Below are positions 36,858-36,915 of a stretch of DNA of 64,000 bases, piece by piece. Both the position numbers and the translations under genes were made by a program. This DNA comes from Acinetobacter zhairuonensis (GTDB lineage: Bacteria; Pseudomonadota; Gammaproteobacteria; Pseudomonadales; Moraxellaceae), in assembly GCF_022601715.1 (NCBI RefSeq), contig NZ_JAKVIM010000003.1:124001-188000 (forward strand), given 5' to 3'. A model generated the notes under the pieces. The model had not been told where the DNA came from, made no database searches, and saw only the letters and a list, made by a program, of their open reading frames with translations. Numbering within the stretch: the first letter of the stretch is position 1; each line of letters begins with the position of its first letter.

Positions 36858-36875
36858 TATGCAACATGTTGCATA
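36858..36875. promoter_or_regulatory. Operator 1 of the PadR-type regulator
   Basis: Perfect 18-bp palindrome TATGCAACATGTTGCATA. Its core TGCAAC-N2-GTTGCA is shared with a second site 42 bp away. It lies just upstream of the regulator start. Confidence 0.75.
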
Positions 36876-36901
36876 GATTTCAAAATTAGATTATAAATTA
36901 G

Positions 36902-36915
36902 TGCAACAAGTTGCA
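36902..36915. promoter_or_regulatory. Operator 2 of the PadR-type regulator
   Basis: The same core, TGCAAC-AA-GTTGCA, centred 42 bp (about four helical turns) from operator 1 and 44 bp before the fadH start. It is likely to overlap the fadH promoter. Confidence 0.75.

Follow-up and report, generated by a model that had tools for sequence, protein, structure and literature searches.

Paired AphA-type palindromes suggest a PadR-family control circuit for fadH in Acinetobacter

What controls fadH, the gene for 2,4-dienoyl-CoA reductase, in Acinetobacter? The question arises from a 64,000-nucleotide stretch of the Acinetobacter zhairuonensis genome (contig NZ_JAKVIM010000003.1, positions 124,001 to 188,000, forward strand; hereafter the window), in which fadH stands divergent from the gene for a PadR-type regulator. 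According to an excerpt of PMC12691678, linoleate jams β-oxidation in Escherichia coli lacking FadH, and strongly induced FadH is toxic; control of FadH dosage would therefore make sense. An excerpt of PMC8262998 describes DHA, which is polyunsaturated, as stressing A. baumannii and altering its transcription. We propose that the regulator is an AphA-type PadR repressor, encoded at the locus that it controls, which holds down both its own expression and unsaturated-fatty-acid catabolism and would be released by unsaturated acyl-CoA, a reading of the sequence data to which we give a probability of about 0.8. The sites, their position and conservation, their link to the regulator and a second target were established in silico.

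The features of the locus are collected in Table 1. The regulator had been called PadR-type in an earlier note on this DNA, and its domains bear this out: the N-terminal winged helix PF03551 scores 45 bits against a cut-off of 27, which places the protein in the PadR family, and the C-terminal PF10400 (Vir_act_alpha_C) scores 62 bits against a cut-off of 22.4. The nearest named relatives are those of A. kanungonis (96%) and A. tandoii (89%). A longer padR reading frame, starting at 36867, would overlap operator O1; residues M1, S2 and L3 of the shorter start are invariant across 22 sequences. The divergent gene is fadH, again as claimed, and its product is a full-length FadH, a flavin and iron-sulphur enzyme, with residues 4-673 aligning to the E. 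coli FadH structure 1ps9 (932 bits, E = 1.1e-279) and with the segment GIGWHEAR and another stretch (18 residues) common to both proteins.

The alpha/beta hydrolase gene that follows padR is possibly co-transcribed with it. Of the 109 genus loci, 106 have this gene next to padR, and a part for its product in the circuit, as thioesterase or lipase, is possible. Next to the hydrolase gene, between 31647 and 35338, are ORFs that by eye resemble catechol and benzoate dioxygenases, together with a BenM/CatM-like LysR regulator that scores below the cut-offs of the BenM/CatM models. A close relative of this LysR protein (at least 63%) is encoded nearby in 9 of 32 named loci.

Table 1. Features of the padR-fadH locus, in window coordinates; promoter elements are predictions
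Feature	Position	Strand	Sequence or description
padR	36283-36825	minus	PadR/AphA-like regulator, 180 aa; PF03551 + PF10400; start ATG 36825
fadH (fadH1)	36959-38986	plus	NADPH-dependent 2,4-dienoyl-CoA reductase, 675 aa; start ATG 36959
SD-like sequence before fadH	36950-36954		GGAGG
alpha/beta hydrolase gene	35358-36266	minus	same strand as padR, after padR
SnoaL-like protein gene	39049-39456	plus	downstream of fadH; in 27/32 named loci
Operator O1	36860-36873		TGCAACATGTTGCA; exact TGCAAC-N2-GTTGCA
O1, extended form			TTATGCAACATGTTGCATAG; symmetric at 18/20 positions
Operator O2	36902-36915		TGCAACAAGTTGCA; exact TGCAAC-N2-GTTGCA; expected over fadH transcription start
Putative fadH -35	36869-36874	plus	TTGCAT; 3/6 to consensus; overlaps O1 right half
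Putative fadH -10	36892-36897	plus	TATAAA; 17-nt spacer to -35
Putative padR -35	36878-36883	minus	TTGAAA; columns conserved 79-100%
Putative padR -10	36856-36861	minus	CATAAT; overlaps O1 left end; columns 100% conserved (63 distinct rows)

The two genes are separated by 133 bp, and both palindromes lie inside this region, 42 bp apart from first base to first base, exactly as the earlier note had described them. That note had also proposed a genome search for further copies. The 3.55-Mb genome holds five exact matches to TGCAAC-N2-GTTGCA, where base composition predicts about 0.17: two between padR and fadH, one before a second fadH gene (fadH2), one within a coding sequence and one just behind a gene end. 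We also shuffled 108 homologous intergenic regions by dinucleotides, and none of the 10,800 shuffled sequences contained two sites at up to one mismatch. From these two results, we conclude that the twin sites are not a product of chance. The looser pattern, with up to two mismatches, is uninformative in the window, where its six occurrences are at chance level (5.84 expected).

In a survey of 119 genomes of the genus, 109 had the regulator; its region was obtained for all 109, with a divergent fadH at 108. Two sites with up to two mismatches are present in 105 of the 108 divergent pairs, and a single site in the other three. Both sites are exact in 68 pairs, one is exact and the other has one mismatch in 32, both have one mismatch in four, and one pair combines a one-mismatch with a two-mismatch site. 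As conserved promoter-region sites, the palindromes fit the role of operators that had been claimed for them, which the regulator would bind. In a set of 32 named loci that overlaps the 108 pairs, twin sites occur in 29. The exceptions, L302, L303 and L304 (A. sedimenti and two relatives), fall outside the 108-pair sample and keep the regulator (60-62% identical), fadH and the hydrolase gene together with no twin sites; L304 and L274 are the same contig.

The distance between the sites is 42 bp in 79 of the 105 pairs, 41 bp in 10, 49 bp in seven, 50 bp in two, 52 bp in two, 53 bp in three, 54 bp in one and 55 bp in one. Four helical turns thus predominate and five turns recur, and nine pairs (49-50 bp) are off helical phase, which indicates that pairing is kept more strictly than phase. 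The spacing in the window had been said to favour cooperative binding on one face of the DNA. This is only partly supported: the pairing is conserved, but the nine off-phase pairs weaken the case for strict same-face cooperation.

Loss of the regulator provides a natural comparison. Exact palindromes number 2.8 per genome with the regulator (n = 109) versus 0.8 in the genomes from which it is absent (n = 10). The latter hold eight in all, and the seven that we examined are inside ORFs, where most chance matches would fall. The three regulator-less genomes that have fadH1 (G001, G031 and G076) lack a site before this gene, with best matches at 4, 4 and 3 mismatches. Three have fadH2: no site was found before it in G001 and G044, and a one-mismatch site precedes it in G029, a 65% complete genome in which no regulator was found. 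One genome without fadH1 (G093) retains the regulator and the hydrolase, with a one-mismatch site still upstream of padR and an exact one upstream of fadH2.

The protein itself points to a known operator type. Residues 1-174 are similar to Vibrio AphA (1yg2) over the whole length (phmmer, 1.9e-22), and, on sequence, we place the regulator in an AphA-like subgroup of the PadR family; we do not claim AphA orthology. Its segment ATHQQIYREL stands at the position of ASHQQVYREL in AphA and, judging from winged helices in general, is the putative recognition helix. The V. cholerae AphA ChIP-seq motif, as given in an excerpt of PMC6855506, is ATGCAA-N4-TTGCAT, which O1 matches at 12 of 12 positions and O2 at 11 of 12. 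The motif in an excerpt of PMC3440409 for V. parahaemolyticus AphA is ATATGCA-N6-TGCATAT. An AlphaFold2 model of the regulator (mean pLDDT 79.8, pTM 0.50) aligned to 1yg2 with Z 11.7 and rmsd 6.4 over 152 residues. This model adds little, because AphA, Mycobacterium tuberculosis Rv1176c and Bacillus subtilis PadR, at Z 11.5-11.7, were level with shorter PadR and MarR chains, and because residues 29-35 are weakly modeled.

Could the palindromes instead be binding sites for a different factor, or form hairpins in RNA, with their nearness to padR being incidental? Binding by the regulator is something that we infer, and L302 to L304 have the regulator and fadH without twin sites. Nevertheless, we regard this explanation as very improbable: fadH1 is siteless where the regulator is absent, O1 is upstream of the predicted fadH transcript, the motif accompanies regulator homologues across families, and it is the motif ascribed, in the excerpted source, to the regulator's relative AphA.

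Both operators overlap predicted core promoters of the divergent genes. O1 would overlap the padR -10 and the fadH -35 simultaneously, and O2 sits a few bases past the predicted fadH -10, over the predicted fadH start. Counted in alignment columns from the first base of O1 as 0, TTGCAT occupies columns 9-14, TATAAA columns 32-37 and CATAAT (minus strand) columns -4 to 1; the padR -35 columns, 18-23, read TTGAAA or TTGATT. Across 63 distinct rows with 42-bp spacing, TAT of the fadH -10 is conserved at 100%, the next two A at 98 and 92%, and the last position at 65%. The padR promoter matches at 10 of 12 positions over -35 and -10 with a 16-nt spacer, but the scan finds one such match where 1.0 is expected by chance. 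This padR match was all that the scan returned, and the putative fadH promoter was not recovered. Information content in the 63 distinct regions with 42-bp spacing is 1.91 and 1.95 bits in the sites, 1.39 bits in the linker and 0.39 bits in the flanks, and the excess of linker over flanks fits conserved promoter columns held in the linker. In the rows that we inspected, the region varies in length between the fadH -10 and O2. No intrinsic terminators were found between padR and fadH.

Taken from sequence, this operator placement suggests repression. The regulator might alternatively activate fadH from O1, which is centered near -37 of the predicted start, and repress only itself. Such a role would suit the poor predicted fadH -35 and has a precedent in AphA, which both activates and represses and which, in the excerpted literature, activates tcpPH in V. 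cholerae. We consider activation improbable. Repressors typically bind where O2 lies, across the predicted start of fadH, and where the fadH2 site lies, at or next to a putative -10; in the same excerpted literature, AphA represses cqsS cooperatively from two sites over the start of that gene.

The fadH2 gene is on another contig of the same genome and is 56% identical to fadH1; the exact palindrome before it ends 26 bp ahead of the start codon. Across the genus, fadH2 is present in 107 of 119 genomes and carries a site in 90. Of the 107 genes, we read 97 directly, and the other 10 have an exact site at matching coordinates. Among the 97, 80 have a site (75 exact, four with one mismatch and one with two) and 17 have none. 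Fifteen of the 17 are in genomes with the regulator, and eight are accounted for by five A. lwoffii records, A. sp. BY419, A. pseudolwoffii and A. variabilis. The operator lies next to a conserved TANTAT hexamer, a putative -10, and overlaps it, so the operator's position here also appears repressor-like. Given the exact palindrome on a separate contig and the 90 sites in 107 genomes, the regulator probably acts on fadH2 in trans.

In the repression circuit that we infer, a PadR dimer would bind palindromes of the form TTATGCAAC-N2-GTTGCATAA. The dimer at O1 would cover the predicted padR -10 and fadH -35, that at O2 would cover the predicted fadH start, and occupancy of both would shut off the divergent pair. 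In trans, the single palindrome over the putative fadH2 -10 and start would also be bound. Release would come from a signal made during unsaturated-fat degradation; the likeliest is an unsaturated acyl-CoA, for example the dienoyl-CoA on which FadH acts. FadH synthesis would then be confined to times when the cell has polyunsaturated fat to deal with. Counting against this circuit are L302 to L304 without twin sites, the 17 siteless fadH2 genes among 107, the G029 fadH2 site in a genome where no regulator was found, the 9 of 105 off-phase spacings, the poor fadH -35, the chance-level promoter hit, the presence of fadH within 1.5 kb at just one of 21 more distant homologue loci (described below) and the dual role of AphA as activator and repressor.

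We expanded the search beyond the genus sample. We added 20 loci, one from Acinetobacter and 19 from other genera of the Moraxellaceae. In 19 of them fadH adjoins the regulator gene, and in 18 padR is preceded by two sites with up to two mismatches. Among 21 more distant regulator loci, 17 of them outside the family, an exact ATGCAA-N4-TTGCAT precedes the regulator in 10 and a match with up to two mismatches in 19; two such sites occur in eight (overlapping in one). Just one of the 21 (L322) has fadH within 1.5 kb, and the others adjoin CrtI-like flavin oxidoreductases (identified by eye), a nitronate-monooxygenase-family gene and others. Since the operator is kept in loci that mostly lack fadH within 1.5 kb, it belongs to the AphA-like class, with fadH as one repeated partner. 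By eye, L325, L328 to L333 and L335 have an AphA-like PadR gene beside a CrtI-like enzyme gene, with one or two perfect ATGCAA-N4-TTGCAT sites; the flavin enzyme of L333, the one CrtI-like locus scanned, carries PF01593.

A phylum-wide search of 398 genomes yielded 20 matches at E 1e-24 or better, and one newly seen locus, L343, from a different family within the class, carries fadH together with two sites. A plasmid collection gave 34 matching records, of which 10 loci were opened. The regulator has fadH within 3.5 kb in eight of these (Burkholderia stagnalis, Eleftheria terrae, Tistrella mobilis, Rhodococcus koreensis, A. baumannii, Streptomyces fungicidicus, Streptomyces sp. NBC_01237 and Streptantibioticus cattleyicolor) and no fadH within that distance in Cupriavidus metallidurans and Mycetohabitans endofungorum. 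A site with up to two mismatches precedes fadH in seven of the eight (three mismatches in Rhodococcus), and in six of the seven there is no other match in the stretch. In S. fungicidicus the site is a perfect TTATGCAACTAGTTGCATAA, the sole match in a stretch of 75% GC where 1e-5 exact matches are expected. Gene order varies: Burkholderia, Eleftheria and A. baumannii have the two genes divergent, the four actinomycetes have both on one strand with fadH first, and the Tistrella genes are convergent with a SnoaL-like gene between them. Regulator, fadH and operator thus recur together in beta- and alphaproteobacteria and in Actinomycetota. Together with the same site at fadH2, this recurrence by fadH in distant bacteria makes the control circuit look widespread.

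Two observations accompany these searches. The A. baumannii entry (L365, NZ_CP077849.1) is a 3.66-Mb circular record that is filed as a plasmid and carries the conserved locus; it is probably a mislabelled chromosome. A SnoaL-like gene occurs with fadH or the regulator at L346, L349 to L356, L359, L363, L365 and L368; this gene is present in four plasmid-collection loci with fadH, and it adjoins the regulator at nine loci from one family of another class, none of which has fadH within 1.5 kb.

Other genes also carry the operator. It precedes nitronate-monooxygenase-family genes in two Acinetobacter genomes (L240:2001 and L241:2001; L240 was scanned), a perfect site precedes a similar gene in C. 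metallidurans (L360:5128), and two one-mismatch sites lie between the regulator and a scanned gene of this family at L338. Judged from such sites, nitronate-monooxygenase-family genes are a possible second recurrent target. Two genomes without fadH2 (G054 and G015) have an extra site before an acyl-CoA dehydrogenase gene (L238 and L239). These targets, the CrtI-like flavin oxidoreductases adjoining distant homologues, and M. tuberculosis Rv1176c, which is said to have raised oxidative-stress tolerance in a surrogate host, would suit a circuit whose signal is oxidised or electrophilic lipids, or redox stress, and not polyunsaturated fat as food, with FadH one of several flavin enzymes under its control. 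We think this unlikely, though less so than activation from O1, as the sites within the genus are mainly at the two fadH genes and an acyl-CoA dehydrogenase target also fits fatty-acid breakdown.

A wider regulon in the A. zhairuonensis genome was not apparent. We looked at 18 further near-matches, a subset of the one-mismatch matches (17) plus one exact ATGCAA-N4-TTGCAT; 14 are inside ORFs, and the four intergenic ones have no fatty-acid link visible by eye. Of two other PadR matches in the genome, the one on contig C35 lacks an operator-like site immediately before it, and the weak one on C19 is a protein that by eye resembles MarR.

If repression by an unsaturated-acyl-CoA-sensing PadR holds in Acinetobacter, unsaturated-fat breakdown there has a switch of its own, apart from the FadR and PsrA of other gammaproteobacteria, and the precise operator makes the proposed circuit testable. 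An AphA operator in a metabolic circuit of distant bacteria would also hint at where AphA came from and at what class of ligand it may bind, and the circuit would offer a function for structurally solved PadR proteins. More tentatively, a circuit spanning two phyla (Pseudomonadota and Actinomycetota) may exist in which such a regulator controls fadH through a fixed ATGCAA-N4-TTGCAT. Vibrio AphA might then be a member that moved out of lipid metabolism yet retained the operator, and it may still sense a fatty-acid-like ligand.

PadR regulators, AphA operators and fad repressors are each of known kinds; their combination at fadH is apparently undescribed. The earlier note knew of no such circuit, and our search of the open-access literature by literal matching likewise found no description of PadR control of fadH, although one may exist elsewhere. 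One candidate paper (PMC12914303) was set aside because it matched on an author name and the cofactor FADH. The identity of the motif with that of AphA, the fadH2 site in the same genome and the recurrence far outside the genus are new relative to that note.

How does the proposed circuit compare with known systems? FadR of Enterobacterales is a GntR-family protein with a broad fad regulon. FadR, which is released by long-chain acyl-CoA, and PsrA of other gammaproteobacteria regulate fatty-acid degradation genes, according to the excerpted literature. PsrA, a TetR-family protein in the same excerpts, also differs by a broad fad regulon, whereas here a PadR protein has a narrow predicted regulon centered on dienoyl-CoA reductases. 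Among solved structures, the best match by sequence is M. tuberculosis Rv1176c (PDB 8ioi, 1.2e-24). Its neighbor is presumably the fadH gene Rv1175c, and it reportedly binds its own promoter; we know of no operator or fadH control for it, and the likeness is at the protein level. A search of the open-access literature for 8IOI gave no match. For PadR of B. subtilis, which shares the fold family and differs in that its ligand is a phenolic acid, we are aware of no fatty-acid link. Structures of this PadR with operator DNA and with p-coumaric acid exist. Vibrio AphA is a close parallel, with full-length similarity, a near-identical putative recognition helix, a matching operator and, in the excerpted literature, two-site repression at cqsS. 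AphA is a regulator of quorum sensing and virulence, whereas the neighbors and predicted targets of the Acinetobacter regulator are fadH genes.
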